DNA of 64,000 nucleotides, taken from NCBI GenBank assembly GCA_028753945.1, contig JAPNXP010000001.1, forward strand, positions 11,770,501 through 11,834,500. The letters are read 5' to 3'. Below the pieces are notes generated by a model. That model worked only from the letters and a program-made list of their open reading frames with translations. It was not told where the DNA came from and searched no databases. The stretch comes from Hexactinellida sp. DTS-2022 (taxonomy: Eukaryota; Porifera; Hexactinellida). The translations under genes and the position numbers were made by a program. Below are positions 12,901-59,244 of the stretch, in pieces (within the stretch, counting starts at the first letter, position 1; each line of letters begins with the position of its first letter).

Positions 12901-13615
12901 TAGTTCAAATTACTCAGAATAAGAAGGGTTAGAAGGAAATAACGAATAATTACATTCACTACCACCCGAAATACTTAACTGAAATTGTTTAACACATTTA
13001 TACTAGTGATGAAAAATCGTAAATAAATTCAAAATAACAGCAGCTCCTGATCTAGTAGAAATAAAATAAAGTGCCTCCAAAAGAAATACTTTTGGTGCAA
13101 TTGAAATGGTAAAAAGAGGGAAGGGGCGTCGAAGACTTGGGGTATAAGTAATTTTGCGTTACCTAATGTAAGAACTGCCCTTAGCTTAGACTACACCATC
13201 TAATAATTATATTGTAGTAGAGAGCATGCAATCCCAATTATTCGGGCCTATCTTTGACTATTTCAGCTGTAAATATAAATATATTTAAAATATACTTAAC
13301 AGTCTTAACTAAATGTCCTTCCGCAGTATGAAATATTCTAGTAAATAAATGACAAAAAGACTAAAAGCATTGATTACAACAGTTATAATATTTAAACGTA
13401 AACAGGTATGCTAATTGCAAATTAATATTATATACTTGCTAATATTAACTAAGCAAATAAAAACAGGGAGTAACCTAGGGTAGGGATACTATAAATTTTT
13501 ATTTGAGAGAAAAGGGAATCTAAATTAAGAAAACTAAAGCAGAAAGCGATGCTATTTGGGGTTTTTAGACATTAATATTACATTATAATCATTTTTTTCC
13601 ATAGGATCTAACGGA
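12901..13615. other. upstream region of the NLR gene
   Basis: AT-rich with no gene seen. A strong splice acceptor (pyrimidine tract then ccatag) ends at about 13604, 11 bases before the NLR ATG. This suggests a 5' untranslated exon lies upstream and that the NLR coding exon begins just before its start codon. Confidence 0.45.
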
Positions 13616-16600: not shown

Positions 16601-17014
16601 AAGCGCTGGACAGAATTCTTATCTGCTATACAATGCTGTGTTAATATAGTTAGGCTAGAGATAAGCAATACTTTTTTAATTTCATCAGAGGATACTTCTC
16701 AATGGACACACACCCTGAGATGTCTGCAGTCATTGCTTTATCTAAACATTTCCTATGTTGCACTATATGATGCTGGAATGTTATATGTGTGTCTGGGACT
16801 AGCCAAACATCCATCAATTAGGTTCTTACAAATATTTTACTGCCAACAGACCTCTCAGTCGTGTGAAGCACTCACTAACCTAATCCCTACTCTCAGACAG
16901 CTGGAGATACTGAAGATAAACGATCTCTCCAAACCAGATCCAGTTCCCATTGAAGCACTCAGATTAGCAGCGGAGGAGTACTCTATTTATTTTAAAGATT
17001 TTCTTTTCCATTAA
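13616..17014 (+). CDS. NLR-type receptor: two DED-like domains, NACHT, LRR-like tail
   Basis: Intact 1,132-residue protein in one exon, a predicted cytosolic STAND-family sensor. Residues about 10-82 (IYELSSELTT...VPRL) and 100-172 (MKTFLQLLRA...IREY) each fit a six-helix death-effector-like fold; the second has the typical LINKELKDFENALTAI...VATKI pattern. NACHT follows: Walker A GNPGCGKT at 295-302, Walker B LLLIIDGLDEF near 382-392, and TTRPGAW as sensor 1. The winged-helix/arm region contains FAHLTMQEF. From about residue 730 the sequence becomes repeated LRR-like segments (LEISNTF, LYLNISYVAL, LEILKIND). By family knowledge the NACHT binds ATP and oligomerises, DEDs recruit adaptors or caspases, and LRRs sense or inhibit. 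The DED calls rest on pattern, helped by two paralogous pseudogenes nearby; death or CARD folds are alternatives. The first ATG after a likely splice acceptor was chosen. Confidence 0.85.
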   Translation: MDQTITEMKNIYELSSELTTGDVAKLRTLMNVPSGIRDEDCDGINFLSAILNWEKFNPHSFYQALISLKRPDLIQIAIKVPRLCVSKPLQGTDIFEETLSMKTFLQLLRAEIPQKKWQVITICIKGSLQGIYDFENIIRDCLDSQLINKELKDFENALTAIKCIDVATKIREYKSLFVEMSEDEFIGKLKRALRLQGVEIKQWEQKLKQFLNITYTMVTQMLGEEDTVSLTSVYIELTIVKEEPRPVKLEDETTFNEIAYLRKIANKEIEITSVDFTNELKTYTAEKPEIWCLIGNPGCGKTFLSKRIALRFAEAELKQISYSISIPCRNSNWHSMETTRVEEGKSVTSEFVQEWLCLGLPATSDWTKDLAKHIAKSDGEGLLLIIDGLDEFTKKIPFDKSLLYSLLTRETLNQSTIIATTRPGAWTDISSHQGIIIDRFYQVLGFSPENRDRYFQKQITKLDKLNECKKLLSLYDEMNQLSLIPVNASLFAALLKDDTVTIQTLTHLYRELTCYLIRRQLDRMALKEQAKVKKIELFDKSILDCLYAIGRIAMIGVASRELTSTERVQMIINYVEVECQCLGLAHEFYTKDSVGTIKKVWAFAHLTMQEFTSAIFLKSTSWIKQCMSVRYIADCNEHFSIFRMVVRFLCGLLANKSAALLTILCRKLLPETTEDLPMYHQLGFEIGIFSTLLLPYTRYYDFTKKYFQIIPNLFETNSLHIHLAIKRLLPTSVSLYLDGNVLPVSPNEWLCFTQSLQLVQRIKVLYIHTTHVSIEQFESLMKQIQIYPLSQLAVKFETIYTLKEPMSRKVLAYTNLINKAVFGHNTRICIELMTCDIKELTDIDLFTSPTNQHINSVMLYSSRYSNELLDQLVNCVVSSECFQYLAIDTTKHLSIFLPALTQATQLKGLYIQALHGNYDQLLDELMPKLTQLTEIVYPGYSPLPHMAHLTGLTYLYIMSGYGSDKSQSANLLRVLNSNHNTLRVVNLPHLDKIEFKRWTEFLSAIQCCVNIVRLEISNTFLISSEDTSQWTHTLRCLQSLLYLNISYVALYDAGMLYVCLGLAKHPSIRFLQIFYCQQTSQSCEALTNLIPTLRQLEILKINDLSKPDPVPIEALRLAAEEYSIYFKDFLFH

Positions 17015-20815: not shown

Positions 20816-23800
20816 TCAATCCACGTTGTGGTCGATGAATATTTGCAGGATTGCTTCGTTCACCACTTCCTTACCGACAAACTGAAACTTACCACAGAGA
20901 TTTCCCAGATTAATTTTCATTGCATCCTCGAAATGAGGGAAGTGTATTCCCGTATTAATTCCATGATAATTAATGTTGAACTTCTTCATATTATCCCACA
21001 CATCTCTGTTCCACTCGAACTTACACAGAGTGCCATTATTGCAGCAGCAACAATGCTGTTTGTTGCTTTTCGGTAAATGTGATTCGTAGTTGGGAAAATC
21101 TCCGTGTGGGGGTGCATCAAATAAATGAATAATAATATTCCTAACTTCAGTACTAATCTTCCAATCACACTTTGTAGTTGCAGTTGCCAGTCCGTCTAAC
21201 ACGGCTTCCGGGTAATCTCCTCCCCCATAGGCTTTAACTGATGCGAGGAATTGTTGAACACTCTCGTATTGTGCGGTAAATTGATTGTTGGTAGGAAACT
21301 GCTCTATCATTTTCTCATCACAATGGTCACGGTAAATAACAACTTTAAACTCCGATTGAAGATTGTTATATTTGTTAATAAACTGCCCTACAGAGATGCG
21401 AGCTTTCTTTATCTCTGAAATCATAGAGCCAGTGCCGTCTATCACGAAGCATATGTAATGAAACTTTGAGTTTAGAGTTATACTAAGCTCATCATAGGAG
21501 GTATAAGGTACGAATTTAATCTTGGTTCCTCGAGTATCATGATAGTTCAATATTCCTTTTCCATATTTGTTCCATGTATGTATCATTTTTTGTCGATTTT
21601 CATGCTGCAACGCCAAATATTTCTCTTCATTTGGTTGGTTCCAGTTCCAATCGTTCTCACATAGGTGTTTAAATGATTTCCAGTTCAGTTTACATCCTGA
21701 GAAATCAACCCTTGTATCATCTTTATAATCGTCACACATAAATAGGACGGCAGTTTTTTCTTCATCATTGTTCCACACTCTACCACCCATCGAACAGATT
21801 TGGTGTCCTGTTTTTATCTGGCATTTGCCGTTGTTTGGGTGGAGCTCTCTCTCGCACAGTTTCCCACAACTGGGACACCGAGACGGACAACCGAGTGCAT
21901 CTTTCTGAAATTCTTCTTTGACACGTTGCACCATTTCCGAAAATTCAAAATCAGTCAATTGATATTCGTAGGTGTTTAAAACCGAAAGAAATTCTGTGAT
22001 ATATTCAAATATGTTGAAAATATTCTCAGTATTGAACATTTTAGTATTTTCTAGCTTTTTAAATAAATCTTCATTGAGGAGATTGGATGTATTGGTTGGT
22101 TTATCACATAACACATAAGTGTCAGATCTTTTCACCTTAACTCCATCCAGCACAAAAGCATTAGAAAAGAAATTGTTGAATTCTTCACTACTTACCCTTG
22201 GATCGAGGTACATTCGCAAATATAGTATCGCACTTTTAAACGGACTTTCTTTCGCCTTAATCAGGAAATCGGCTCCACTTTTTCTACAAGATTCCATGTC
22301 TACTATCTCAAAGTTGCTGTCTGAGTCGAAAGCATTTCGCTCAGTACTACCTGAGCATTTAGCAGCAAGAGCAGTTAGCAATGCATTAAGCACTCTTATG
22401 ACAATTCCAGTTTGCTTTGTAAATTTTTCATCCATATCTCTATTTATTTTCTTATAGAGTTCAGATTCAACTTGTGACCATATATCTTGGAAGCTCTTAT
22501 TAAGCACTTCATTACGATTGCATATGTATTGAACAACAAAATTACCTTCGTACATCACTTCTTCCTCATCCCTATATAACTCCGTGGTAAAGTTAGAATA
22601 AGCCAAAAATAATACACTTTCATATGATAAGTCTTTTCGAGCCCTGAATTGGTGCTCAATAATAGGCTGTTCTACTGTTTTCAATCTTCGCGCTACACAA
22701 CCATTAAAGTCTAGAGCAAAAGATCTGGCGAATTTAAGATCACTTTCTCTCATTTTCTTACGATCCCACGCCCCTCGAACAATTCTACGACTTTCAATCT
22801 TCTGCAAAAAGTATTGAAGAAGGAAGGCCTTCTTTTCTTTCGTTTCTTCCTTATTCTCAATCCGAAAATATGATTTAATATCCCAGAGAGATTTGAATGC
22901 ATAAATAAACGCCAAAGTTGTAATAACTCTCTCCGCTGTATTCGTAAGCCTTGCTCCGAAGTAGTTTATTTCATAGTTGACTAGTTTAAATTTAGTGCAC
23001 AAGAAATAAATAATCTCTTTAACAGTTCCGTGGGAAATAAAGCGATCTTTCTCTATGAAGGATTGTACCTCGCAAGTTATATCATCAACAAACTTTTCCC
23101 AAGTACTTTGAAAGAAATTGTCTGGAGATCTTAATTCGGAAGCCAATAATAAAATCTGAGAGTTTTGGTCTAATCTTCCCCAATTTATTTCTGGGTGATT
23201 ATAATAACCTGAGCAATACTTTACCAGAGGTCGACATTCCTTCGGAATCCAATCATGGATAACTAGATTTGGTTTATCTTGCATAGATTTCTGTCTCATT
23301 TCAAATAAGGAATTCTTCCCAAAATATTGACATTCAGTTAATCCGGGATATGGCGTCATCTCTTTAATAGGAAAATTAATCTCACCGCAGGGGAATATAA
23401 ACTGGTCTGGTCCAGAGATTTTAATAAGATTTGTTATAAATCTTGTACAAATATCCGACTTCAAGGCGTTAATTGAGTCATCAATTTCAAATTGGAAATC
23501 TCGAAATATTTCAAAAATTACTGGACCATTTTCCATTGTTTTAGATTCCATTCTAAAAATAGAATATAAATCGTTGAAGATTTCATCTCGCTCAATCTCT
23601 TCTTCTTTCTGGTCATCACAACCAAAACACTCTCGCCAAGTCTCTTCAAAAGGAATTTTCAGTTCATCAACGTTGAAATCCAAATATTTATCAACATTTC
23701 TAATTATCATTTCTTGAAACTGTTTCATACTCTGAGATAATTTAATCTCGGTTAAAACAGCTTTAATTTCTAATTTTAGCCAATCTTCATAAAATTTTCT

Positions 23801-26800
23801 TTCAATGTAGACAAGTCTAGAAAGATTTAACCTCGATTCATTACAAACATGACTCATCTTCCTAAGTAGAAGTTCAGTTTGACATTTAGTATCAAATCCA
23901 GCGAAACAACGATCTTGATATTGGTCGAAAACATCATCAAATTTGATCATTATCTTTGTCAATATTAGATTAGGATGGGATGGAGTGTCAATGGCATTAA
24001 TTTCGAGAAAAAGATTTTCTGTGTTTTCAAGGAATAGGTGTTTTTGAAGATAAATATTTGTCTCCATTAGTTCTGAAACTATTTTGCCAAGGATGTTACT
24101 GCATATCTCCTCCTCTACATTCCTATACTTTACAATATCTTGGTATTTGATTATTGTGTCCCAAATGGTGCCAGACATTTCTATCCACTGATTCATCGTG
24201 TCAAAAGTCGCTCTCTCTCCTACTGGCATATTATCCAGCTGTTTAATTATGGCCATTCTAAGATCTGCACACTTATCAGCGAAAGTGATAGTAGGAGATA
24301 GTTTGGTTACCTTTGAATCGAATAATTTTCCTCCTGGCTTATTTATTTGTTCTGAATTGAATGCAGAAGGAAGGATAAATAGATTTTCTTTTGATACCTG
24401 AATCAGATTGGAAATCTTGACTCCTTCTGTGTCCACTAACTCTGGCCTCTCATTCAATTTGTTTATCAGAATATTCATGGAGTCCAAGTGTTTGTCAGGA
24501 TCAGGATCAGCCTGTTGGTTCAAAACAAAGAATATCTTAGGAGTAGGTACTTTTGTGACTTTAAGTCTGTTCAGAGAATAAGCACACACTTGCAGTAGGT
24601 TTTGCATTTCACTGCCTATGTCTCCTATCACATTAATAATAACTACTTGGGACACAGCCATACAGAATAGCACCATGGTCCAGTCGAAATGGATATGTGA
24701 GGTGTCTTTGATGTTTCCTCTCTCAATCGCATCCAGACCTTCCGTGTCCAGAATAAGGAAATAATTTGAGAGATTAACAGGCCGACTCAACCTGGAGAGA
24801 GACCCATAAATTCCTTTGGTGCATCTCCCAGCGCTGGTTAGGAACTTGCAACCAAAGCAGTAGTTAAGCAATGTAGACTTCCCGGAGCTCTGTGGCCCGA
24901 ATATACTCACTACAATAGGGGCCTGTTTTATTTGGATCGTTTGACCCTCATTTATTAGCTGTAACTCTCCAAATTGTTTATCATACAAATGAAATAAGAG
25001 ATAATCAATTTCTTTGTTAAAGAACCGGAGATTATCACCATCTATCAGCTCGAAAGGCTCTCCTCTCTCCACATGATTACTGAAGTTTTTCACGAATAAT
25101 TGTAAATAAGAATTAACTTCATTATTGTCGAGTAAACCACCATAATGATACGACAAGAAAGCCTCCCTCCAAATTATCTCTAATTTAAATAAATCGTTCT
25201 TTGACTTTATCTGTTTTGAGAGGATAGAAAGTTCTTGAGATAGCTTCCATAAAATAAATGTTGAATTCTTCTGTTTTAATATTTCATTAAAGTGTACAAC
25301 TACTTCACCCATTCGAGTGCTTTTCAGCGCTTTTGATACATCTGTACATTGGACATTGAGTTGATCAACCTTCTTCTGGTCAGTTTCAGCGGAAGCTCTG
25401 TGATAACAACTCATGTAACTGACAAAGAGAGGATAGTAAGGTAGGGAGAGATTACTGGGAATAAGGTTCATAATTATTTGGATTAACTGTTTGTCCGATC
25501 GAAGTTCCTCTAAGCTATTGGGATCAAGCTTCGCAATAACATTCTCTAGAAAGCTATCTCTAATACGCTTAGGATTATCATATCTCAAATGTAAAATTTC
25601 ATAGCCAATTTCTTTCAATGATTTCTTCATTGAGTGGTTATTTGTTTTAGATTTTGTGAGATTAGGTATGAAAATTCTTTTAACTGATTGATTATTGGTA
25701 AGCTCTTGTTCTATTTTCACTTCATTATCTTCGCAATCTCTGATAAACTGAAACACGTATCTAACTGATCCTGTTAGCCTGTCTAAGTCATTATTCAATT
25801 CTCTACGGTTTTGTGAATAATCAAGATAGCTCACATGAATCAATGCAATATCCAACTGCTGACAGATTATATTAATCACAGACAAGTCAGAATGTCCATG
25901 ACAATCAATGTATGCCCATTTGGTAGACTCATCACTCGCCTTCTCTCCGAACAGATTCTTTGTCAGTTGGATGTCAATCGAGCCAAAGTGAAACGCACTA
26001 GTTGGAGGATTCCCCTGAACAAAGTCAGTACCGAAAATGAAATCAATAAGATACGACTTTCCAATTGGATTCCAGCCTGCTCTTCCTAAACCGAATGACA
26101 CCAATCCATTAAATTCCTGCAGTGAGTACCATAGTTCTTTGCAAATCTCTAGCTCCCCATTGAGATTCGGATAATAGAGAGGCACGGGATTACTGAATGA
26201 ATAATGCTCAATGCAGTATCCTCTGAGCACAGGTTCTGACAGCTGGAATAAAATGTGGAACATGTCGTGTGTAGTTAGATCTATCCTACTGGTGTTGGCT
26301 ATTATCTGAGTTATGTCATCAAGAGGGAGACTGCACTTGAGGTAGTAGAATGCTAAGGGGAGGAGGTCATCGAATACATTCTTTTCGACCTGTTCGTTCT
26401 GGTCTGTACCATAAATAATTTCTTTGAATGAATTTGAGATTACCATCCTATACGTATGGAATGTTATTCTCTCCTTACCAAAATTGTTGACAATTTTAAG
26501 AATTTGGTCTCTTTGCGACTTGAAACAATGTTCTCTCACTACTGTACTTGGACTGTACTGTTCTAGGTAGTCTTTAATTACTGTTTCTACCTTATTCAAT
26601 TTTAAGCTCAGTTCTTTAATTGAATTATGACTACATTGTTCGATGAGAGTGATGTCTTCAACGGATAACTCTAAATCAATTTCGAAAAATGTCTTAGATT
26701 CTTCAAACTTAGCGAAATAATTTTCTAATATCTTGTATTTAACATTATCTTGCTTTTTTAATATGCAACCGAGTTTGTCTTGTAATGTTAGGTCGTTTGA

Positions 26801-27661
26801 AATTATCATGGTGCGCAGCTTAGAAAAACTAATCTCGGAAAAGTATTCACATATAGTTCCCAACATTTTGTGACCTTCTTCCCCTTCAAATGTCAAAAAT
26901 GTAATCTCTACGTATTCACGGACCTTTAATTCAGATAGCCTCAATATATTTGCAATATCACCTATTGAGTAACCAGCATTTACCTTCTCCCCAATCACAG
27001 TTTTCTGCCTGTCGTTAAGTGCTTTTGATTCGAAATACGCTGAAACTATAGCTTCATCAATATCACACAATAATGCAATATCTTCCATATTATCAAATTG
27101 AGGGTTGTCTATCATGGTTTGTTCGATTTTTGAAATGTCACATTGACTTATGCTGACGATTGTTTGTTGTTTCTTAAAAGATTTAAGTGCTTCAATTGCT
27201 AATTTGGCTTTCTCTTGAGATACTTTTAGCCTTGCAGCTAATACTGCTGGCCTTTCTATAAACTTTTCGCCATGATCTAGAATAAACTCTATATCCCCTT
27301 GCTTAAGGCCGAGAGAAAGGAGCTTGCTTTGTAAAGCATTGTCTTTCAAAGGTATTGACAAACTCAATGCATAACTGGTAAGAGGCCCCTCCCTTTGCGG
27401 GTTGTATTCATCTGAGGGCGAAACAATTGAACTTGCAAGAGCTTCGACAGGATCTTCTAATTCTTCACTTAAGTTCGGCGACATGATTACTGGAGGATTC
27501 GCGGGAAGATCGGATTTCTGGTATCTAGGGATATCTTTCGGAGTTGTGGTACATTCGCTTGTATCTCCATCAGGAGAAGCTTTACTACTTGTATGACCAT
27601 GCTTCACAAAAGGGTCTGTTTCAGGTTCAATTTTCCTCCCAGCCATGCTAATAAATACCAT
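20816..27661 (-). CDS. VLIG-like very large GTPase with C-terminal VWA domain
   Basis: An uninterrupted 2,281-residue frame; giant single-exon coding is typical of VLIG/GVIN genes. A degenerate GTPase-like domain lies near residue 525 (FGLGRAGWNPIGKSYLIDFI). The main G domain is near 915-1050: G1 GPQSSGKS, a switch segment GRCTKGIYGS, G3 LDTEGLDA and G4-like NQQAD, matching the VLIG/GBP layout. Near 1920 a cysteine/histidine cluster (CPSRCPSCGKLC...GHQICSMGGRVW) resembles the zinc-like motif of VLIGs. From about 2065 to the end is a VWA domain with a MIDAS-type DGTGS and VVIYRDHCD, most like VWA domains of the alpha-kinase/vwkA kind. Vertebrate VLIGs are interferon-inducible cytosolic GTPases; the VWA tail is not part of that familiar layout. 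The start could be 27661 or the second Met at 27646 (MAGRKIEP), which follows a possible acceptor TTATTAG. Confidence 0.87.
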   Translation of the reverse strand: MVFISMAGRKIEPETDPFVKHGHTSSKASPDGDTSECTTTPKDIPRYQKSDLPANPPVIMSPNLSEELEDPVEALASSIVSPSDEYNPQREGPLTSYALSLSIPLKDNALQSKLLSLGLKQGDIEFILDHGEKFIERPAVLAARLKVSQEKAKLAIEALKSFKKQQTIVSISQCDISKIEQTMIDNPQFDNMEDIALLCDIDEAIVSAYFESKALNDRQKTVIGEKVNAGYSIGDIANILRLSELKVREYVEITFLTFEGEEGHKMLGTICEYFSEISFSKLRTMIISNDLTLQDKLGCILKKQDNVKYKILENYFAKFEESKTFFEIDLELSVEDITLIEQCSHNSIKELSLKLNKVETVIKDYLEQYSPSTVVREHCFKSQRDQILKIVNNFGKERITFHTYRMVISNSFKEIIYGTDQNEQVEKNVFDDLLPLAFYYLKCSLPLDDITQIIANTSRIDLTTHDMFHILFQLSEPVLRGYCIEHYSFSNPVPLYYPNLNGELEICKELWYSLQEFNGLVSFGLGRAGWNPIGKSYLIDFIFGTDFVQGNPPTSAFHFGSIDIQLTKNLFGEKASDESTKWAYIDCHGHSDLSVINIICQQLDIALIHVSYLDYSQNRRELNNDLDRLTGSVRYVFQFIRDCEDNEVKIEQELTNNQSVKRIFIPNLTKSKTNNHSMKKSLKEIGYEILHLRYDNPKRIRDSFLENVIAKLDPNSLEELRSDKQLIQIIMNLIPSNLSLPYYPLFVSYMSCYHRASAETDQKKVDQLNVQCTDVSKALKSTRMGEVVVHFNEILKQKNSTFILWKLSQELSILSKQIKSKNDLFKLEIIWREAFLSYHYGGLLDNNEVNSYLQLFVKNFSNHVERGEPFELIDGDNLRFFNKEIDYLLFHLYDKQFGELQLINEGQTIQIKQAPIVVSIFGPQSSGKSTLLNYCFGCKFLTSAGRCTKGIYGSLSRLSRPVNLSNYFLILDTEGLDAIERGNIKDTSHIHFDWTMVLFCMAVSQVVIINVIGDIGSEMQNLLQVCAYSLNRLKVTKVPTPKIFFVLNQQADPDPDKHLDSMNILINKLNERPELVDTEGVKISNLIQVSKENLFILPSAFNSEQINKPGGKLFDSKVTKLSPTITFADKCADLRMAIIKQLDNMPVGERATFDTMNQWIEMSGTIWDTIIKYQDIVKYRNVEEEICSNILGKIVSELMETNIYLQKHLFLENTENLFLEINAIDTPSHPNLILTKIMIKFDDVFDQYQDRCFAGFDTKCQTELLLRKMSHVCNESRLNLSRLVYIERKFYEDWLKLEIKAVLTEIKLSQSMKQFQEMIIRNVDKYLDFNVDELKIPFEETWRECFGCDDQKEEEIERDEIFNDLYSIFRMESKTMENGPVIFEIFRDFQFEIDDSINALKSDICTRFITNLIKISGPDQFIFPCGEINFPIKEMTPYPGLTECQYFGKNSLFEMRQKSMQDKPNLVIHDWIPKECRPLVKYCSGYYNHPEINWGRLDQNSQILLLASELRSPDNFFQSTWEKFVDDITCEVQSFIEKDRFISHGTVKEIIYFLCTKFKLVNYEINYFGARLTNTAERVITTLAFIYAFKSLWDIKSYFRIENKEETKEKKAFLLQYFLQKIESRRIVRGAWDRKKMRESDLKFARSFALDFNGCVARRLKTVEQPIIEHQFRARKDLSYESVLFLAYSNFTTELYRDEEEVMYEGNFVVQYICNRNEVLNKSFQDIWSQVESELYKKINRDMDEKFTKQTGIVIRVLNALLTALAAKCSGSTERNAFDSDSNFEIVDMESCRKSGADFLIKAKESPFKSAILYLRMYLDPRVSSEEFNNFFSNAFVLDGVKVKRSDTYVLCDKPTNTSNLLNEDLFKKLENTKMFNTENIFNIFEYITEFLSVLNTYEYQLTDFEFSEMVQRVKEEFQKDALGCPSRCPSCGKLCERELHPNNGKCQIKTGHQICSMGGRVWNNDEEKTAVLFMCDDYKDDTRVDFSGCKLNWKSFKHLCENDWNWNQPNEEKYLALQHENRQKMIHTWNKYGKGILNYHDTRGTKIKFVPYTSYDELSITLNSKFHYICFVIDGTGSMISEIKKARISVGQFINKYNNLQSEFKVVIYRDHCDEKMIEQFPTNNQFTAQYESVQQFLASVKAYGGGDYPEAVLDGLATATTKCDWKISTEVRNIIIHLFDAPPHGDFPNYESHLPKSNKQHCCCCNNGTLCKFEWNRDVWDNMKKFNINYHGINTGIHFPHFEDAMKINLGNLCGKFQFVGKEVVNEAILQIFIDHNVD

Positions 27662-27739
27662 CCATTATATAGGGTCGTGACTCGTAACCAGGAATTTTCC
27701 TATACCGTAACATTAATTTGTATTTGGGCGTATGTAAAC

Positions 27740-28230: not shown

Positions 28231-29700
28231 TAGTAAAAATTTAATGTTTCAGATTCAATTTTTTTACTAGCCATACTAATGAACAACATCGTTAACACGT
28301 ATATATCGATTATTCGAAATATTGTGTGAATGATAAGTAGATACAAGTTGTTTGGAATTTATAACCTGGAGTAAAATTAATGAATCAATTTAAAATTGTA
28401 AGAAGGTAGAATTGCCTCAAAAACTATTTTCCTATGATAATGGTTCTGGACACATTTGTATAAAGCCAAATATCATAGCCACTTTAGGCCAAACACTACC
28501 ACTACAGTATATTTCTTGTCGGGATCCCAGAATGTTAATTATTTTTTTAATGTTACACTATATTCCGTTTCTATTCCAATTATATTTTGGGACAAAGTTC
28601 ATACCTACAAAGTGGCAACCATTGGCGTAAATACATAACAGAAGGTGGGTACATCATGCAAAAGTTGAAACAAATTGTGCATATATTATTACAGGGCATC
28701 GCACCTTCATAAAATGTGGTTGCCTGGTTGGGACATATTTCCACATCCCTCGAATTTACTCTTGCTGCCAACTTAATCCAGACAAATCCCTGGGCATGCC
28801 GAGAACCCCCTGAACATTGATTCATTTCCCTGGACTCATCAATTTGTCCGAACGTAAAGTATTCGTTTGCTCGGTGTTCAATTACAAGATAAATAATTTA
28901 ATTATATTTAGGTGGGTTGAAAAAATCCATTTTATTCCTAAATGCTTGTTAGTCACTGTCAATTACAACATTAACTGCTAACAATATAATAGTTTGTTTT
29001 AAAATACGTAAATCCTATTCCAATATGAATGAGAATTCGACAATATAATTTGTTTTTAGAACTACATTATTCTCATTAAAAAAACAGTATTTGATTTACT
29101 ATTACATATGTACCAGTGTAATTTATCACGCACATACTAAGGGGATATCGAGTTCTAATATTACATGGATGTGCATAGTCACTATTTCCCATGATAAGTT
29201 ATATAATATCAGTTAGAACCACTTTAAATTTCATTTTCTCAATATTTATCCAAACAAATGTTCATTTTTTCGATTTTTTAAGTAATCGCGATTATTATTA
29301 ATTTTCCATCCGAACTGTAGAGACATTGATTGTTAATAGCATTTCGAATAAATTTGTTATTACAGGCGATATTCAATAGAAAATAGTATTGATCGAAGTA
29401 GAGCCAATCTCTTCTGTGGGTCTAGCATTGAATTCCTGAAATATAATAAATATCCCTTAACCAGAATAAATTATAGCACATAACTAAATAGCGCATATAT
29501 TTGTGTGGAATAAAATTAATTAGACTCTTGAATTATCTACTTTTTTATGTGATTTTGAAGGTGGGTGTTGTCACTTGTGTCTTGAGTGCGATGATTATTG
29601 GCTTGTTTGTAGTCCAGATTGCTTCGGAGAATAGACTCGAGTTTTTACTAGAGATTGTAACTGGCTTTCAAATGTTATAATAGGAAAATAAATACTACTC
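28231..29700. other. gene-free stretch
   Basis: AT-rich sequence with short accidental open frames only (for example near 28412-28825). No domain, splice pattern or named repeat was recognised. Confidence 0.5.
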
Positions 29701-29962
29701 TTGTCATGTAGCGGCATGGCGAGATGCGCTACTAAAAGATGAGTCACTCCCAGGAGGCCTAGGTGCTGCTAGAGTCCGCGAGGGATAGGAGCGAGAGCAG
29801 ACCTAGAGTGTGCGCTGACGGAGCTCCTAGGGAGCAGTGGTCAGGCACAACGGTCGTCCCAAAGCTTCATAACAATTGGACCAATTGTTATGAAGAAGCT
29901 TTGGGACCTCATCAAGCTGCCACAGTTCCTGACTGCGGGCGGTCCAAGTGGTGTCGCCACCA

Positions 29963-30016
29963 CTCAAGGGTTTCGGCCTTCCAGGCCTCATCAAGAGGAC
30001 GGTCCAGTCCTCTACG
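29963..30016 (-). pseudogene. hammerhead ribozyme, defective copy
   Basis: Minus-strand mirror of the ribozyme at 30066-30120. Stems I and II are kept (GAGGAC/GTCCTC, GGCC/GGCC), but the core CTGATGA reads TTGATGA and the strand before the cleavage site (gctccgta) no longer pairs with ACCCTT. Predicted inactive. Confidence 0.75.
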
Positions 30017-30065
30017 GAGCTCCTAGGGAGCAGTGGTCAGGCACAACGGTCGTAGTGAACGTACC

Positions 30066-30120
30066 GAGGGTAGAGGACTGGACCGTCCTCCTGATGAGGC
30101 CTGGAAGGCCGAAACCCTTG
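30066..30120 (+). ncRNA. hammerhead self-cleaving ribozyme, type III topology
   Basis: All core parts are present in order: stem III 5' strand GAGGGT with cleavage triplet GTA (cut after 30072), stem I GAGGAC-TGGACC-GTCCTC, core CTGATGA, stem II GGCC-TGGAA-GGCC, core GAAA, stem III 3' strand CCCTTG. Stems I and II are closed by loops and stem III is open, which defines type III. Base pairing is complete in stems I and II and nearly so in III. Self-cleavage is predicted from the motif and not shown. It sits in a repeated element with a second copy at 36999-37056. Confidence 0.88.
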
Positions 30121-30414
30121 AGTGGTGGCGACACCACTTGGACCGCCCGCAGTCAGGAACTGTGGCAGCTTGATGAGGTCCCAAAGCTTCATAACACTCT
30201 GAATGAAAATATTTTCATATTCATATAACACAGAGGGATTCAATAGACTGAAATTGAATAGAGCCATTTTATTCCATTACCATATTACTCAGATAATTGT
30301 TTATCTTCTACCTCCAGTGCTTACGGTCAGTGTTACTGTTGAGTTTGTATAGACTGAGATGGCCAAATTCCAGTAACGATTAGCGGCCGCTATGAAGCAA
30401 TTATCGAAAGTGTG

Positions 30415-30775
30415 ACGGATCCTCAGGAGTACTGTCCTTGGGAAAGGCGGTAGGTGGAAGTACGGGATGCTGCATGAGTAACTCTGTAGCATAAGTCCGG
30501 CAGTACGGCTGGTAACCTAGTAGCGACACTAGGTTGGCGCGAGGCGCAATAAGAGTGGTGAGGGTTTTTCTCCTGATGAGTCCTTGAGATAGGACGAAAC
30601 CACTGACATGACATTTCCATGAGTTGGGCCAGCAAGAGCGCAGAGTTAGCAATTTAATACCTGGTTGGTAGCTAACTTTACTTTTACGATTATTCGATTT
30701 GGAATTGCGAGCGAAATTTCCATCTTTTTCGATGTCGACTCGAGTTAATGCTTTTGTCATATGAGAGGCCACGCA
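30415..30775 (+). repeat. ribozyme element family 2, single copy
   Basis: Runs from gacggatcctcaggagtact, through gtccggcagtacggctggta and ggttggcgcgaggcgcaata, to a hammerhead-like core and gaggccacgcact. The same blocks form the arms of the palindrome at 35322-36365. It borders the NLR pseudogene that begins just downstream. Boundaries are approximate. Confidence 0.75.
30553..30605 (+). pseudogene. hammerhead ribozyme, probably defective
   Basis: Core CTGATGA, stem II GTCC...GGAC and GAAA are intact, and stem III AGTGGT pairs with ACCACT. Relative to the good copy at 36161-36220 the cleavage-site C is missing (AGTGGT directly followed by GAGGG) and stem I is weakened (gagggtttttctc). Cleavage is therefore doubtful. 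Confidence 0.7.
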
Positions 30776-31918
30776 CTGCTGAAGAAATGGAACTAATTTA
30801 ACCCCGTAGAGTTCATGCGAGTAATTGAGGAAATGGGCAACAGAGAATTGCTATCTCTACCCAAGAAGATAGCTTGGAAGATACAGTTCCAAAACAGGTC
30901 ATAACAAAAACGAAATCAGCTCACCTCATAGAATTGTTAAGTGATGCATGATGTTTCATCTGTGATTGGTATATAATCGCACAAAACATGACAGAGAGCG
31001 ATAACACAAAAGAGATACTGAATATTAAATACAAATTGATACAAGAAGGAATAATCTCATAAAGATCTAACTGTGCTATGCAAAGCTATGACAGAAATTG
31101 AAAGAGTCGATTTGGTACCGAAAATCAAAAATTACGCATCTATGTTCGAAGGTTTAAGTGAAGATGAATTCAAGACTAACTCGTGTCCGAGATAGAATAC
31201 GAAGGAGAAGATAACCATCCCCAGTGGATGAGGAAACTGAGAGAGTATATGCTATTGCAGCACAGAGATGTCAGTGATGTTATACTAGACAGAGAAATGG
31301 TTGCATTGGAATCCATGTATACTCCACTCACTGCCATTAAACAACAGACAGATAGAGTAAAACCAGAAGCAGAGACCTCCGTTAAAGAGATTGAATTCCC
31401 GAGGGAAATGAACAAAGAACAAAGGAGGTTTGAAACGGAATGGAATACCAAGAATCAGAAATAGTTGACTTCGAATCTCATGTTCCCATTGTCGCACCGA
31501 GAAACCAGAAATCTGGAAGCTAATAGGGAGCGAATCCAGGTTGTGGCAACACCTTCCTATGCAAGTACTCCGGATACTGTTACGGGATGGATAAACTAGA
31601 GAACTTCCAGTATCTCCTGTGCACACACTGCAGAGACACAGAATGGCATGAGATTGAGGTGGCGAGACAAGAGGACAAAGAGATCAACAAATACATGCGC
31701 AGATGGCTGGCATCAATATGCCACTCGGTGTGGGATGGGAAGAGTCCCTGACACGATACATAATGAGGACAGGAGGGGAGAGTCTCCTCTTGATAATAGA
31801 CGGACTCAAAGAGTTCATTAAGACAGTCCCATTCGACACAACACTACTCTACCTCCTCCATGAAAGAGAATCTTACTTAGCGCTACCATCCTACTCACCA
31901 GCAGACCAGGTGCTTGGT
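30776..31918 (+). pseudogene. NLR pseudogene 2 (DED1 end to NACHT RPGAW)
   Basis: Frameshifted relic parallel to the intact NLR. Segments recognised: FMRVIEEMGNRELLSLPKKI (DED1 end), IKYKLIQEGIIS and TEIERVDLVPKIKNYASMF (DED2), MRKLREYMLLQHRDVSDVIL, SMYTPLTAIKQQ, LLIIDGLKEF (Walker B with Asp-Glu changed to Lys-Glu), and in another frame LLTSRPGAWSD. At that point the 21-bp array takes over. The Walker A region near 31530 is shifted by several small indels. It pairs with the inverted pseudogene at 17306-18290 and lacks LRRs. Confidence 0.85.
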
Positions 31919-34900
31919 CTGACAAACTGGTTTTGAAACAAGATAGACCGGTTTTGAAACAAGACAAACAGGTTTTGAAACAAGACAAACCTGTTTTTGA
32001 AACAAGACAGACGGGTTTTGAAAATAGATAAACCGGTTTTGAAAATAGATAGACACGTTTTGAAAATAGATAAACTGGTTTTGAAACAAGTCAAACGGGT
32101 TTTGAAACAAGACAAACCGGTTTCTGAACAAGACAAACCGGATTTGAGACAAGACAAACCGGTTTTTGAGACAAAACAAACAGGTTTTTGAGACAAGACA
32201 AACCAGTTTTGAAATAAGATAAACCGGTTTAGCAACAAGTCAAACCGGTTTTGAAACAAAATAAACCGGTTTTGAAAATAGATAAACCGGTTTTGAGACA
32301 AGTCAAACCGGTTTTGAAAATAGATAAACCGGTTTTGAAACAAGTCAAACAGGTTTTGAAAATAGATAAACCGGTTTTGAAACAAGATAAACCGGATTTG
32401 AAAATAGATAAATAGGTTTTGAAACAAATCAAACAGGTTTTGAAACAAGAAAAACCGGTTTTGAAAATTGATAAACACGTTTTGAAACTAGACAAACCGG
32501 TTTTGAAACAAGGCAAACATGTTTTTGAAACAAGTCAAACCGGTTTTGAAACAAGGCAAACCGGTTTTTGAAACAAGACAACCCGGTTTTGAAACAAGTC
32601 AAACCGGTTTTGAAACAAATCAAAACGGTTTTGAAACAAGTCAAACAGGGTTTGAAACAAGATAAACCGGTTTTGAAACAAGGCAAACCGGTTTTGAAAC
32701 AAGTCAAACCGGTTTTGAAAATTGATAAACCGGTTTTGAAACAAGTCAAACAGGTTTTGAGACAAGATAAACCGCTTTTGGAAATTGATAAACAGGTTTT
32801 GAAACAAGATAAACCGATTTTGAAACAAGACAAACCGGTTTTTATAATAGATAAACCGGTTTAAATCCAAGTCAAACCGGTTTTGAAACAAGATAAACCG
32901 GTTTTGAAACAAGTCAAACCGGTTTAGAAACAAGACAAATCGGTTTTGAAACAAGACAAACCGGTTTTGAAACATACAAACCATGAGTAAAAATAGATAA
33001 CTGGTTTTGAAAATCGATAAACCGGTTTTGAAACAGGACAAACCGGTTTTGAAACAATTCCATACGGTTTTGAAAAAGACAAACCTGTTTTGAAACAAGG
33101 CAAACCGGTTTTGAAACAAGATAAACCGGTTTTGAAACAAGTCAAACAGATTTTGAAACAAGATAAACCGGTTTTGAAAATTGATAAACCGGTATTGAAA
33201 CAAGTTAAACACGTTTTGAGACAAGATAAACCGGTTTTGGAAATTGATAAACCGATTTTGAAACAAGTTAAACACGTTTTGAAACAAGATAAACCGATAT
33301 TGAAACAAGACAAACCGGTTTTTATAATAGATAACCGGTTTTGAAACAAGTCAAACCGGTTTTGAAAATTGATAAACCGGTATTGAAACAAGTCAAACTT
33401 GTTTTGAGACAAGATAAACCGGTTTTGGAAATTGATAAACCGGTTTTGAAACAAGACAAACCGGTTTGAAACAAGATAAACCGATTTTGAAACAAGACAA
33501 ACCGGTTTTTATAATAGATAAACTGGTTTTGAAACAAGTCAAGCCGGTTTTGAAACAAGTCAAACAGATTTTGAAACAAGATAAACCGGTTTTGAAAATT
33601 GATAAACCGGTATTGAAACAAGTCAAACAGGTTTTGAGACAAGATAAACCGGTTTTGAAACAAGTCAAACAGGTTTTGAAACAAGATAAACCGGTTTTGA
33701 AAATAGATAAACCAGTTTTGAAAATTGATAAACCGGTATTGAAACAAGTCAAACCGATTTTGAACAAGACGAACCTGTTTTTGAAACAAGACAAACCGGT
33801 TTTGAAACAAGTCAAACCGGTTTAGAAACAAGTCAAACAGGTTTTGAAATAAGATAAACCGGTTTTGAAAATTGATAAACCGGTTTTGAAACAAGACAAA
33901 CCCGTTTTTGAACAAGACAAACCAGTTTTGAGACATGCTAAAACCGTTTATTTCTGGAACAACCGGTTTTGAAACCAGATAAACCGGTTTTGAAACAAGA
34001 CAAACTGGATTTGAGACAAGACAAACCGGTTTTTGAACAAGACAAACCGGTTTTGAAAATAGACAAACAGGTTTTGAAACAAGACAAACCGGTTTTGAAA
34101 AGGACAAACCGGTTTTGAAAAAAGACAAACCGTTTTTGAACCAAGTAAAACCGGTTCTAAAACAAGTCAAACCGGTTTTGAAAATAGATAAACCGGTTTT
34201 GAAACAAGACAAACCCATTTTTGAACAAGACAAACAAGTTTTGAGACATGCCAAAACCGTTTATTTCTGGAAAAACCGGTTTTGAAACCAGATAAACCGG
34301 TTTTGAAACAAGACAAACTGGATTTGAGACAAGACAAACCGGTTTTGAAGATAGATAAACCGGTTTAGAAACAAGACAAATCGGTTTTTCAACAGACAAA
34401 TCGGTTTTGAAAATAGATAAACCGGTTTTGAAACAAGACAAATCCGTTTATTTCTGGAAAAACCGGTTATGAAACCAGAAAAACCGGTTTTGAAACAAGA
34501 CATACTGGATTTGAGACAAGACAAACCGGTTTTTGAACAAGACAAACCGGTTTTGAAATAGATAAACAGTTTAGAAACAAGACAAACCGGTTTTTGAACA
34601 GACTAACCGGTTTTGAGACAAGACAAACCGGTTTTGAAAATAGATAAACACGTTTTGAAACAAGACAAATCCGTTTATGAACAAGACAAACCGGATTTGA
34701 GACAAGACAAACCGGTTTTGAGACAAGACAAACCGGTTTTGAACATGACAAAGCAGGTATTGAAACAAGACAAAGCGGTTTTGAACATGACAAAGCAGGT
34801 ATTGAAACAAGACAAACCGATTTTTGAAAAGACAAACCAGTTTTTGAGACTAAACAAACCGGTTTTTGAACAAGACAAACCAGTTTTGAGACAAGACATA

Positions 34901-35203
34901 CCGGTTTTGAAAATAGATAAACCGGTTTTGAAAAAAGTAAAACCGGTTTTGAGACAAGACAACCGGTTTTGATCCTGACAAACCGGTTTTGAAACACCCA
35001 AACCGGTTTTGAGTCAAGACAAACCTGTTTATTTCTGGAAAAACCGGTTTTGAAACAAGACAAACCTGTTTCGAGGCAAGACAAACCGGTTTTGAAACAA
35101 GACAAACCTGTTTTGAGGCAAGACAAACCGGTTTTGAAACAAGACATACCGGTTTTTGAGACAAGACAAACGGTTTTATCTGGATAAACCGGTTTTTGTG
35201 GTT
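31919..35203 (+). repeat. 21-bp tandem array, about 155 units
   Basis: About 3.3 kb of tandem units with consensus ACCGGTTTTGAAACAAGACA plus A. Variants are gaaaatagataa, gaaacaagtcaa, gagacaagacaa and gaacaagacaa. Most units contain the palindrome AAACCGGTTT, so the same symmetric site recurs every 21 bp. Single-base length changes occur throughout, and larger higher-order units are visible (for example, gtttatttctgg occurs near 33946, 34257, 34447 and 35028). Unit length is a multiple of three, producing long open frames on both strands (VLKQDKP forward; CFKTGLS or LFQNRFI in reverse) that I do not regard as genes. Confidence 0.95.
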
Positions 35204-35888
35204 AACACGATTACATAGTTCCAATATATCTCGAGAAATAAGGTGAGAAAGAATAACAGTGGTAGTAGAATGGTAGTAGAAATCTCATGCAACAGACAAA
35301 AGCCGAGCCATATATGGGTAACGTGACGTATCCTCAGGGGTACTAGTTGTGGGCAAGGGCGGCGGAAGCAGGGAAGCTAGGGGGGCTCAGCCCCCTACTT
35401 TCCCCCTCATATACATTATACTAATTTAAATAATACTAGTAAAGGACATTTCAGTAACTATCTGCGTTAGTGAGTGTATTATTTGTTGATGTTGTTTTCT
35501 CAATACTTTTAATATTTATTTGGAAAATGATTTAGTTATTTGGAAATGACTTGAAAATTTATTCTAATTATTTTATGTTGTTTTTTAAATTTATTTGACG
35601 ATTTGTTATTTATTTGAATGATCTGAGAAATTAATTGAATATTGAAATTTTGTAATATCACTTCATTCACCATGAAACTATAATATGACAATTAAATGTC
35701 AGTCCTCGCTATGATTTTGGAATATTTATTGTGTAAATAATGGTAAATACATAGATATACTTAATTTAGCAAATATTTATTTCGAATACTAATTGTGATT
35801 TTGTGGCCAATCGAGAGATTTACAATATTGATCCGGCAGTACGGCTGGTAACTAGTAGCGACACTAGGTTGGCGCGAGGCGCAATAAA

Positions 35889-35940
35889 AGTGGCCGAGGG
35901 TTACCCTCCTGATGAGTCCTTGAGATAGGACGAAACCACA
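35889..35940 (+). pseudogene. hammerhead ribozyme, left arm, defective
   Basis: CTGATGA, stem II GTCC...GGAC, GAAA and ACCAC are intact. The cleavage triplet reads GCC where the right arm has GTC, and the stem I loop has lost about six bases. Predicted inactive. Confidence 0.72.
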
Positions 35941-36160
35941 CACGTAACATCCCTATGGGATGGGGTCAGCCATAGCGGCTAGTCTTCATACTAGTACGTG
36001 GCCTCATCTCATAACATAATAGCCGGCCATAACATAATAACCTCCGACGTTAACGCCGGGGTTATTATGTTATGGCCGGCTATTATGTTTTGAGATGAGG
36101 CCACGCACTAGTATGAAGACTAGCCGCTATGGCTGACCCCATCCCATAGGGATGTTACGT

Positions 36161-36220
36161 GTGTGGTTTCGTCCTATCTCAAGGACTCATCAGGAGGGTA
36201 ACCGGAACCCTCGACCACTC
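36161..36220 (-). ncRNA. hammerhead self-cleaving ribozyme, type III, right arm
   Basis: On the minus strand: stem III GTGG plus cleavage triplet GTC, stem I GAGGGT...ACCCTC, core CTGATGA, stem II GTCC-TTGAGATA-GGAC, core GAAA, stem III CCAC. All conserved core positions are present, so this copy is predicted active. It differs from the left-arm copy exactly at the cleavage triplet and the stem I loop. Confidence 0.87.
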
Positions 36221-36434
36221 TTATTGCGCCTCGCGCCATCCTAGTGTCGCTACTAGGTTACTAGCCGTACTGCCGGATCATCTACAGACTACTCATGTAG
36301 TGTCCCGTACTGCCACCTACTAGTTGGTCCCACAATTAACACCCCTGAGGATCCGTCACAGTAATACAAATGTATATGTAAGAAAACCTGGTCTAGGAAG
36401 TCTACATATACATTATTTCATAAAAAATTTAAGA

Positions 36435-37911
36435 TTAAAATAATTGTTTAGCTAAGGAGATAAATACAAATATAATAATTGGTGAAATAATAACAAAATA
36501 CCTTCCGAATGTGGACCCTATATTCAGAATGTCGCCGTCTTCTAGCGAGATGGCTAAATGCGATAATTGATAATTATAATTCATCATGGTCAGACTGTGG
36601 ACCATTTTCTTGTGTAGACACGTATTTTCATTTGCAACACCCTGTAAGTTTCCAATAGCTTCTTTTGCATCACGTTGCAGTGCTAATTCCTTGTGAGATA
36701 ATATAATCTAAACGGATCAAACTTGAACATACCACAATAGGAGACTGGAGTAACAATAGTTTATTATTGAATCTGAAACTTAATATACAAATACTTATAT
36801 AAGATACTGTGTTGGAATATGTACGGTACATGTCACGAAGTGCTTAGAGCACGACAAAGGTCACGTCACTCCCAGGAGGACTAGGTGCTGCTGGAGCTGT
36901 GTAGACAGCGAGAGAGAGCAGGCATAGATGTGTCGCGACGGATGGAGGCAGTTCACATCTGGTCGTTAGTCGGTCACAGCGGTAGCAGTGAGCGTACCGA
37001 GGGTAGAGGACTGGACCGTCCTCCTGATGAGGCCTATGGAGGGCCGAAACCCTAGAGTGGTGGCGACACCACTCGGACCACTTGAGCTGTCATGGTGGCA
37101 GCTTGATACAGTCAGGGTGAAAAGCTTCATGACATAGTATACATACTATTTTGCTGCAAAATTACCACTTTGACCGACTTATTGGAAAATACTGATTAAT
37201 TATTGACTCTACTCTTACCGTTCTATATGATTTCTATTCCCATTCCCATGAATCCCATTTTATTCCCACAGGATTTATTTGCTGATTCATATGGGGATCC
37301 ATGTGGGAATTCCCACAGAAATCCTGTAAGATTAGAGATTCCAATCTCGGGATCCTGGGACACCAATATTGTGGCAGGCCATCCTTTTGGTATTACAGAA
37401 TTGTCAGAATGCGTATCATACTAAATCACTATAGTGATTTGGAGCCGTTAAAACCTTCCGTAATGCAAAATTACCTAAAATTAAACACCCCAGTCACGCT
37501 CTTTTGATCATTTTGTAACACAAAAGAATCGTATCTAACATTGGATAATTACCCCCTCCCCCCTTTGAAGCGTAACGTCACAGTTGAACCGAGGAGGCCA
37601 AAACCGAAACCGAAATCACTAGCGATTTAGTTAGTAATTAGAGCCGTAAAAAAACGCAGGGATTTTGGGCTCCAAAACGCGCTTACAAATACAACCCATA
37701 TTGGTACAGCGAATTTCGTACCATTTCCATTATTCCCGGGCCTCAGATGCATTTCAGACGAATCATACTTCTCTATAGGTTCTGCAATGAGCAGCCTCAA
37801 ATGATGCAAGTTCACAGCAGGATGAATGCCTTCTGGGAATTCGCTATACAAGTCTAATACCATGCTCAGGCTCACGTATAAGTCATTAGTTATAATCAGT
37901 GAATCAAGCAT
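36435..37911 (-). CDS. two-exon predicted membrane protein, family not recognised
   Basis: Exon A 37911-37687 opens with ATG after an in-frame stop and ends at a consensus donor (gtaagc). Exon B 36689-36435 follows an acceptor AG and ends in TAA. Both junctions are phase 0, giving 159 residues. Exon A reads MLDSLIITNDLYVSLSMVLD, with HPAVNLHHLRLLIAEPIEKY in the middle. Exon B starts ELALQRDAKEAIGNLQGVAN and ends with a hydrophobic stretch (YFVIISPIIIFVFISLA), a likely C-terminal membrane anchor. The start lies about 250 bp from RAB21 on the opposite strand, suggesting a shared divergent promoter. A family 1 ribozyme element occupies the intron. I do not recognise the protein; extra exons are possible. 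Confidence 0.5.
36822..37135 (+). repeat. ribozyme element family 1, single copy
   Basis: From about catgtcacgaagtgct through cactcccaggaggactaggt, the hammerhead at 36999-37056, and a hairpin agtggtggcgacaccact, to aaaagcttcatgaca. It aligns with the rearranged copy at 29705-30230 and gives the probable unit length of about 300 bp. No long terminal repeats, no reverse transcriptase and no tandem partner were seen. Confidence 0.78.
36999..37056 (+). ncRNA. hammerhead self-cleaving ribozyme, type III topology
   Basis: Same design as 30066-30120: GAGGGT and cleavage triplet GTA (cut after 37005), stem I GAGGAC-TGGACC-GTCCTC, CTGATGA, stem II GGCC-TATGGAG-GGCC, GAAA, CCCTAG. The stem II loop differs from the other copy while its stem is retained, which supports selection or recent activity. 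Predicted active. Confidence 0.87.
37225..37385. repeat. ATGGGAATCC-type simple repeat region
   Basis: Runs of attcccattcccatgaatcc, catatggggatccatgtggg and aattcccacag resemble the interior of the element at 9409-10151 (positions 9776-10040). Probably a fragment of the same element or a shared simple repeat. Confidence 0.5.

Positions 37912-59213: not shown

Positions 59214-59244
<31 letters not shown>

Follow-up and report, generated by a model that had tools for sequence, protein, structure and literature searches.

Type III hammerhead ribozymes within small LTR retrotransposons of a glass sponge genome: candidate animal LTR retrozymes

The locus and its hammerhead elements

The stretch of glass sponge DNA analyzed here (the window, 64,000 nucleotides) encodes a NACHT protein, a URGCP-type GTPase, an NHL protein, a Ras-family GTPase, eIF2-alpha and DENR. 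The NACHT frame (13589-17014) and the 2282-aa URGCP/VLIG-like GTPase with a VWA-like domain (20816-27664) are of innate-immunity type. One of these proteins, eIF2-alpha, shares 80% identity with its counterpart in the glass sponge Oopsacas minuta, which bears out the placing of this DNA in an animal genome by the initial annotation; among the best 120 of 3512 matches the other named proteins reach at most 58%, and four unnamed ones 76-88%. A search with COX1 gave no match. Two simple repeats were also noted. A 3.3-kb array of about 156 copies of the 21-bp unit GACAAACCGGTTTTGAAACAA (31921-35177) lies between two clusters of the LTRs described below and reads as several long open frames, probably owing to its periodicity, and a repeat of 12-bp period (59214-59538) codes for a run rich in glutamine in one of a pair of overlapping open frames.

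The initial annotation had placed the conserved core of a type III hammerhead, with stems I and II closed and stem III open, at 30066-30120, and direct reading of the boxes and stems confirmed both the core and the topology. The ribozyme occupies 30065-30120 on the plus strand: the 5′ strand of stem III (30065-30071), the cleavage triplet GTA (30070-30072, with the predicted cut after 30072), a closed stem I of 6 bp with a 6-nt loop (30073-30090), the CTGATGA box (30091-30097), a closed stem II (30098-30110), the GAAA box (30111-30114) and the 3′ strand of stem III, which follows 30114 and ends at 30120. The type III covariance model RF00008, searched over the 9 kb of 28500-37500, matches it with 39.8 bits (E 5.6e-6). 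This is below the RF00008 gathering score of 48.5, so that, of the hammerheads in the window, a default scan reports just those at 35888-35941 (+) and 36161-36220 (−). Altogether five hammerhead cores lie in the window, at 30091, 30573, 35909 and 37024 on the plus strand and at 36193 on the minus strand.

Judged from its sequence context, the hammerhead at 30065-30120 is not a free-standing ribozyme but sits within a small LTR retrotransposon. It belongs to an LTR of the GGCC (tRNA-Gly) family, here termed A1 (29702-30196, +), which starts with TGTCATG, ends with CATAACA and is flanked by identical CTCT target duplications (TSDs; 29698-29701 and 30197-30200). A1 spans 29702-30196, as against 276-307 bp in seven listed solo LTRs of the GGCC family, and contains two inserts, an inverted copy of 121 nt and a direct duplication of 40 nt. 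The 40-nt segment (29818-29857) recurs exactly at 30014-30053, while among the copies read it is single per LTR in L041, L042, L043, L052, L053 and L057. The inverted copy (29895-30015, −) is 99% complementary to 30070-30190 and carries the antisense of most of the hammerhead. At the fold-back junction (29868-29892) the LTR 3′ end, CATAACA, is joined to ATTGG and then to the reverse complement ACCAATTGTTATG; ATTGG is the start of the tRNA-Gly primer site, and the junction would be a by-product of reverse transcription. RNA of 29895-30190 is predicted to form one long hairpin (MFE -291 kcal/mol) that engulfs the ribozyme. A1 can thus be described as a scrambled, fold-back solo LTR, the ribozyme of which is predicted to be masked by its own inverted copy, and this makes it a poor choice for the gel assay of cleavage that the initial annotation had suggested.

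The remaining hammerheads of the window also lie in LTRs. B1 is a GTCC-type LTR (30413-30640, +, delimited by local alignment to L108), the 3′ part of which was not found; its degenerate hammerhead (30557-30601, +, 37.0 bits) lacks the cleavage-site nucleotide, reading GTGGTGAGGG where GTGGTCGAGGG is expected. B2 (35322-36360) is palindromic, composed of an LTR, a hairpin and an inverted LTR between GTAA duplications (35318-35321 and 36361-36364), and its initial TG is changed to CG. The triplet of the left-arm hammerhead is mutated to GCC (35888-35941, +, RF00008 49.9 bits), and that of the right-arm hammerhead is an intact GTC (36161-36220, −, 57.6 bits). The left arm also holds unrelated DNA (35354-35830), possibly a nested insertion. 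A2 (36861-37134, +) is a diverged LTR of the GGCC family which ends with CATGACA and has an indistinct 5′ end; no target duplication was seen at its flanks, and its hammerhead (36998-37055, +) scores 36.2 bits against RF00008.

Hammerhead fold and LTR anatomy across the genome

The assembly (112.4 Mb, 18 contigs) contains 370 matches to the hammerhead core pattern, with places listed for 100 of them, and a single match to the reversed pattern, which supports the initial annotation in its claim of a dispersed element. The GGCC stem II subfamily, to which the hammerhead at 30065-30120 belongs, accounts for 42 cores (reversed control, 0). A covariance search had been proposed as a check; across the genome 64 of the 68 scored RF00008 matches lie above the gathering cut-off, but the copy that gave rise to the proposal, with 39.8 against 48.5 bits, does not. 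The type I model RF00163 gave no match, and control genomes were likewise silent.

A total of 82 distinct contexts, taken from the window and from fetched loci, were parsed into stems, and 9 that had no clear stem I or no NU at the cleavage site were dropped; in the 73 remaining contexts the cleavage triplet is GTC in 50, GTA in 21, and TTC and CTC in one each, and stem I is mostly of 5-6 bp with a short loop. These contexts yield 42 distinct stem signatures. The paired cells amount to 209 of 210 in stem I, a figure that is partly circular because parsing required four stem I pairs, and to 166 of 168 in stem II and 222 of 252 in stem III, in each of which the search pattern itself fixes one pair. 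When the same signatures are slid by one base, the paired cells fall to 129, 110 and 101, respectively. Pair 4 of stem III varies among G-C, T-A and A-T, and pair 2 of stem II between T-A and G-C. By this comparison of copies the fold is preserved through paired changes in stems II and III, and since the ribozyme stems are kept in this way in several LTR families, cleavage is probably under selection.

The aligned copies begin with TG and finish with CA, and each LTR of the full copies (L053, L106, L028) contains a type III hammerhead. Intact LTRs measure 233-331 bp. Target duplications of 4 bp were matched in 27 of 37 insertions listed by hand, these being the copies with two recognizable outer ends, where by our own arithmetic uniform chance would give about 0.15. 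Matches were found in 9 of 11 insertions of family A, in 15 of 18 of family C and in 3 of 5 of a group made up of family B and the GTCC palindrome of the window (two solo LTRs, one tandem and two palindromes). The 10 insertions that have none include all 3 of family E; one of the family C misses, L105, would match with its start moved to the next TG. Outside the list stand L098 (5′ end missing), L087 (5′-truncated), L110 (left flank beyond the fetched stretch), B1 and A2 of the window, A2-type copies with shared flanks, and unread loci of other families in L001-L038. An automatic flank scan, in which every LTR was taken singly and the inner LTRs of multi-LTR copies were included, found duplications in 13 of 39. 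A satellite repeat or a ribozyme standing by itself was rejected, since the boundaries are LTR ends, mostly with TSDs.

Three clean full copies were measured (L053, L028, L106), and their LTRs are separated by 73-174 nt, which hold a primer site and a purine tract. L053 consists of two 302-bp LTRs with 2 mismatches around 73 nt and is flanked by CTAT, while in L106 two 330-bp LTRs with 1 mismatch enclose 174 nt between TACT duplications; L054 also has two LTRs around 73 nt, and its flanks (CTTA and CTTC) do not form a TSD. The junctions between the purine tract (PPT) and the LTR read GGGAAGGTGA followed by TGTTATAG, and GGGAAGAGTGA followed by TGTCATG. Solo LTRs seem to be the commonest form, by general impression rather than by a one-by-one count, and L018 lacks an internal region. 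Three GGCC LTRs (L069, L070 and L072, and nearly so L073) share their near flanks on different contigs, with the duplication ACAG inside, and are probably a single retrozyme insertion carried by another dispersed repeat; since at least three GGCC copies are such passengers, copy counts exceed the number of insertions.

Some copies are inverted upon themselves. L090 (TSD CGTA), L052 (CAGG) and B2 of the window (GTAA) are each built as an LTR, a hairpin or primer-site remnant, and an inverted LTR, and because matching duplications bound these palindromes, it seems that the molecule was already inverted when it was integrated. No TSD was seen at the ends of the inverted copies L109 and L086. The palindromes may be read as products of reverse transcription that turned back at the primer, and A1 (TSD CTCT) as a variant of them. 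A larger assembly (L028/L032, G000:C1:7627700-7629950) comprises five LTRs, two forward and three inverted, which are 92-100% identical to the query; with a single outer duplication, CTAT, this multi-LTR molecule, about 2.2 kb long, seems to have entered the genome in a single piece. Inverted repeats were rejected as the defining feature of these elements, being secondary forms where many copies are plain LTRs. Copy ends set opposite the ribozyme by a reverse-transcription start on a circle were also considered, and were replaced by LTR ends given the TSDs, primer sites and PPTs.

Primer sites and likely helper elements

Two classes of primer site were distinguished. Families A (GGCC) and E (GTTCC) carry TTGGTGCATTGGCCG or ATTGGTGCATTGGCCG immediately after the LTR. 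The 14-mer TGGTGCATTGGCCG has 9 matches in the genome (reversed control, 0), all of them, by eye, directly 3′ of the LTR of such an element, although the hammerhead is degenerate in two of the 9 (L083 and the minus copy of L085). As the primer site of L054 carries one mismatch, 9 is a lower bound for elements of this class. The 3′ end of tRNA-Gly(gcc), with CCA added, is complementary to this 14-mer, and the complementarity extends to 18 nt in L084. A 17-mer query, which we take to be the 3′ part of tRNA-Gly, matches the genome at a single place, and this is where a tRNA-Gly(gcc) gene predicted by ARAGORN ends.

No tRNA primer site was seen in the GTCC-family copies read. Instead, six elements (L023, L028, L106, L107, L108 and L109) have a hairpin across the LTR end, in which the last 7 nt of the LTR and the next 7-9 nt pair with a strand shortly downstream over 14-16 bp. 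All six helices end 7 nt inside the LTR, with non-complementary bases beyond, and the LTR end covaries with its partner (CATAACA with TGTTATG, CGTAACA with TGTTACG, CATGACA with TGTCATG). A helix as long as that found did not arise in any of 200 shuffles of the downstream region in L028, L106, L107, L108 or L109 (L023 stood outside this test, and for L109 the longer helix, reaching its inverted LTR, was taken). A wider scan of 47 distinct GTCC-type cores gave 13 hairpins or palindromes of at least 12 bp, a number that includes double views of one locus and some structures away from the LTR edge; the remaining cores are mostly solo LTRs with no internal region. The hairpin is absent from the first LTR of L037, and the hammerhead core of L107 is mutated.

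Elements that could supply the enzymes in trans were sought by means of the integrase core, which has 150 scored matches in the genome. Eight Ty3/Gypsy-type elements with long open frames (among L112-L125, and L126) were sampled, of which only the edges were fetched, and in six of them the LTRs are clean and measure 153-177 bp. The PPT/LTR junctions of these six, for instance GGGAAGGGTGA and GGAGGGAGGTGA, each followed by TGTCATG, match those of the retrozymes, and because these junctions are shared, it is presumed that such helpers mobilize the retrozymes. The six likely helpers have TAA after the LTR end in common with the hairpin-class retrozymes. In addition, the bases following their LTR are complementary, over 11-15 nt, to a segment located 30-71 nt upstream of the LTR end, which was equaled in 0-3 of 3000 shuffles for each of the six, and in an earlier form of the test in 0-2 of 1000 for each of four (1, 2, 0 and 0). 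The other two of the eight are L116, with nested repeats, and L126, with an apparent tRNA-type site.

This arrangement resembles that of Tf1/sushi elements, in which the 5′ end of the mRNA acts as self-primer (PMC6317226, PMC10085805): in six of the eight sponge autonomous elements examined, the LTR-adjacent primer site is complementary to part of the LTR of that element. One of these sources, in its accessible part, counts Tf1/sushi elements among the chromoviruses. A Chromo domain was not matched, at E up to 0.1, in five C-terminal pieces, four of which come from the self-primed six, and the putative helpers are therefore not called Tf1/sushi members here. Unlike in Tf1/sushi, the putative primer strand of the hairpin-class retrozymes lies in the hairpin just 3′ of the primer site and not at the mRNA 5′ end. 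Within the LTRs of this class a self-primer partner extends at best over 3, 4 and 7 nt (L028, L106 and L108). The retrozymes seem to have moved the self-primer of the helper type into the hairpin. A circle made by a ribozyme has no 5′ end, and on it a Tf1-like enzyme would be deprived of its self-primer; the hairpin would supply one beside the primer site.

The hairpin may be no primer at all but a recombination scar, a DNA or RNA structure of other use (e.g., in packaging) or a trace of earlier palindromic copies, and this we hold to be a doubtful but serious alternative. A similar central hairpin is indeed carried by the palindromes L090, L110, B2 and part of the L028 array. Against this alternative stand the constant end of the helix in the six elements, the covarying pairs with non-complementary sequence beyond, and a position which equals that of the self-primer site in the autonomous elements.

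Relation to known retrozymes and proposed mechanism

The rarity of type III hammerheads in animals, on which the initial annotation had laid stress, stands only in part. They are rare, but the accessible portions of earlier reports already place them in the genomes of dipterans and termites, as well as in HDV-like RNAs from toad and termite (PMC7936874), mention them for insects (PMC7761336) and describe a discontinuous form in mammals (PMC6155905). The true oddity of the sponge copies is their LTR-retrozyme anatomy, rather than a type III hammerhead in an animal. The closest likeness is to the plant LTR retrozymes, which, in the part of the source available (PMC4918200, Cervera, Urbina and de la Pena 2016), combine LTRs of about 300 bp, each holding a type III hammerhead, with PBS, PPT and TSDs of 4 bp. 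The sponge elements agree with them in the hammerhead of each LTR, LTR size, 4-bp duplications, PBS, PPT and little coding room, as well as in PPT/LTR boxes common with Ty3/Gypsy elements and in the presence of solo LTRs. They differ in their animal host, in their palindromic and multi-LTR copies, in a shorter unit between cleavage sites (238-504 nt in the four measured, against about 600-800 nt in plants according to the accessible text of PMC7229834) and in the primer site, which in plant LTR retrozymes is for tRNA-Met (PMC4918200, PMC11722881, as far as their available parts go). No tRNA-Met site was encountered in the sponge copies read, which have the tRNA-Gly site or the hairpin instead. 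With the exception of the tRNA-Met primer, all retrozyme features tested are present in the sponge elements.

The retrozymes so far described from metazoans are of another kind: non-LTR, with type I hammerheads and neither PBS nor PPT (PMC4918200; PMC7229834, Cervera and de la Pena 2020, both in their accessible parts). These are animal, non-autonomous and built of small, self-paired hammerhead units, as are the sponge elements, but they form type I tandem repeats lacking LTR, PBS and PPT, with TSDs, when present, longer than 4 bp (PMC7229834, same portion), whereas the sponge elements are of type III and have LTR, PBS, PPT and 4-bp TSDs. Penelope-like elements and Terminons are also retroelements with a hammerhead; theirs are minimal type I variants, unlike the sponge type III (PMC7229834, same portion). 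The hammerheads of HDV-like RNAs and of dipteran and termite genomes share with the sponge copies the occurrence of type III in animals; as far as the accessible text of PMC7936874 goes, their helices I and II are longer and they form a loop-loop pseudoknot, against a sponge stem I of mostly 5-6 bp with a short loop, and termite genomic copies are isolated motifs whereas the sponge copies lie in LTR elements. In the available part of a 2024 review (PMC11722881) complete plant-type LTR retrozymes are identified in dicots only, and metazoan ones are given as non-LTR and type I. In the open-access literature, as far as its texts were available, no animal LTR retrozyme and no sponge hammerhead was found, subscription journals and preprints lying outside that search.

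Taken as a whole, the hammerhead very probably belongs to an LTR retrozyme of animals, an LTR retrotransposon that is small and non-autonomous and is spread in trans. From the sequence we infer its transcription, cleavage, RNA circles and hairpin priming. In the proposed course of events, the LTR promoter would give rise to an RNA with two hammerheads, each of which would cleave itself and thus release a unit predicted at 238-504 nt (four measured), which a host ligase may close to a circle; in 4 of 4 cases the fold predicted for the circle is more stable than those of its 40 dinucleotide shuffles (z −3.3 to −8.1). A Ty3/Gypsy-type enzyme would then reverse-transcribe this RNA, primed by tRNA-Gly in families A and E or by the LTR-end hairpin in the GTCC families, and the integrase of a Ty3/Gypsy-type helper would insert the cDNA with a 4-bp duplication. 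Palindromic and multi-LTR copies between matching duplications would be by-products of reverse transcription. For the fuller reading, in which these are glass sponge LTR retrozymes and one branch has a built-in hairpin that lets a Tf1-like reverse transcriptase start on a ribozyme-made circle, we consider the case about evenly balanced.

The copies might instead be solo LTRs or small LTR elements of an ordinary, TRIM/SMART-like kind, the active hammerhead of which only trims the transcript, with no RNA circle involved in mobility. This is unlikely, even though the LTR anatomy, the TSDs and the many apparent solo LTRs, which LTR recombination could produce, are all compatible with it, and an uncleaved transcript would upon reverse transcription yield identical DNA. 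It is opposed by the paired changes that conserve the stems in several LTR families, from which cleavage is probably selected, by the lack in the three hairpin-class LTRs tested of a self-primer partner comparable to that of the autonomous elements, and by the placing of the hairpin primer strand where a circle or a cleaved RNA retains it. Integrated relics of an infectious viroid-like or HDV-like hammerhead RNA, with no retrotransposon involved, are far less probable: viroid-like RNAs and HDV-like RNAs of toad and termite are known, from the accessible portions of the sources, to carry type III hammerheads, and small, strongly self-paired units would suit them, but TG...CA ends, 4-bp TSDs, PPT and PBS are left unaccounted for by the integration of such an RNA and would not be expected of chance capture, and the long split helix I of the HDV-like kind is absent from the parsed contexts. 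A chance or low-information match with no ribozyme, to which the sub-gathering score of the copy at 30065-30120 might point, has next to no probability in view of 370 matches against 1 in the control, of 64 of 68 RF00008 scores over the cut-off and of the paired stem changes.

Sponge LTR retrozymes, if the preferred reading of the elements as animal LTR retrozymes is true, would mean either a lineage far older than flowering plants or an independent origin, and would break the rule of thumb that type III belongs to plants and type I to animals. They would offer an animal system for asking if viroid-like circles derive from retrotransposons. Since the primer position differs between the retrozymes and their likely linear helpers within one genome, the question of a circular template would become testable. 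The hairpin class, if true, would be a priming mode of LTR elements that was not encountered in the accessible parts of the literature examined, and in it ribozyme circularization and self-primed reverse transcription would be mutually fitted.
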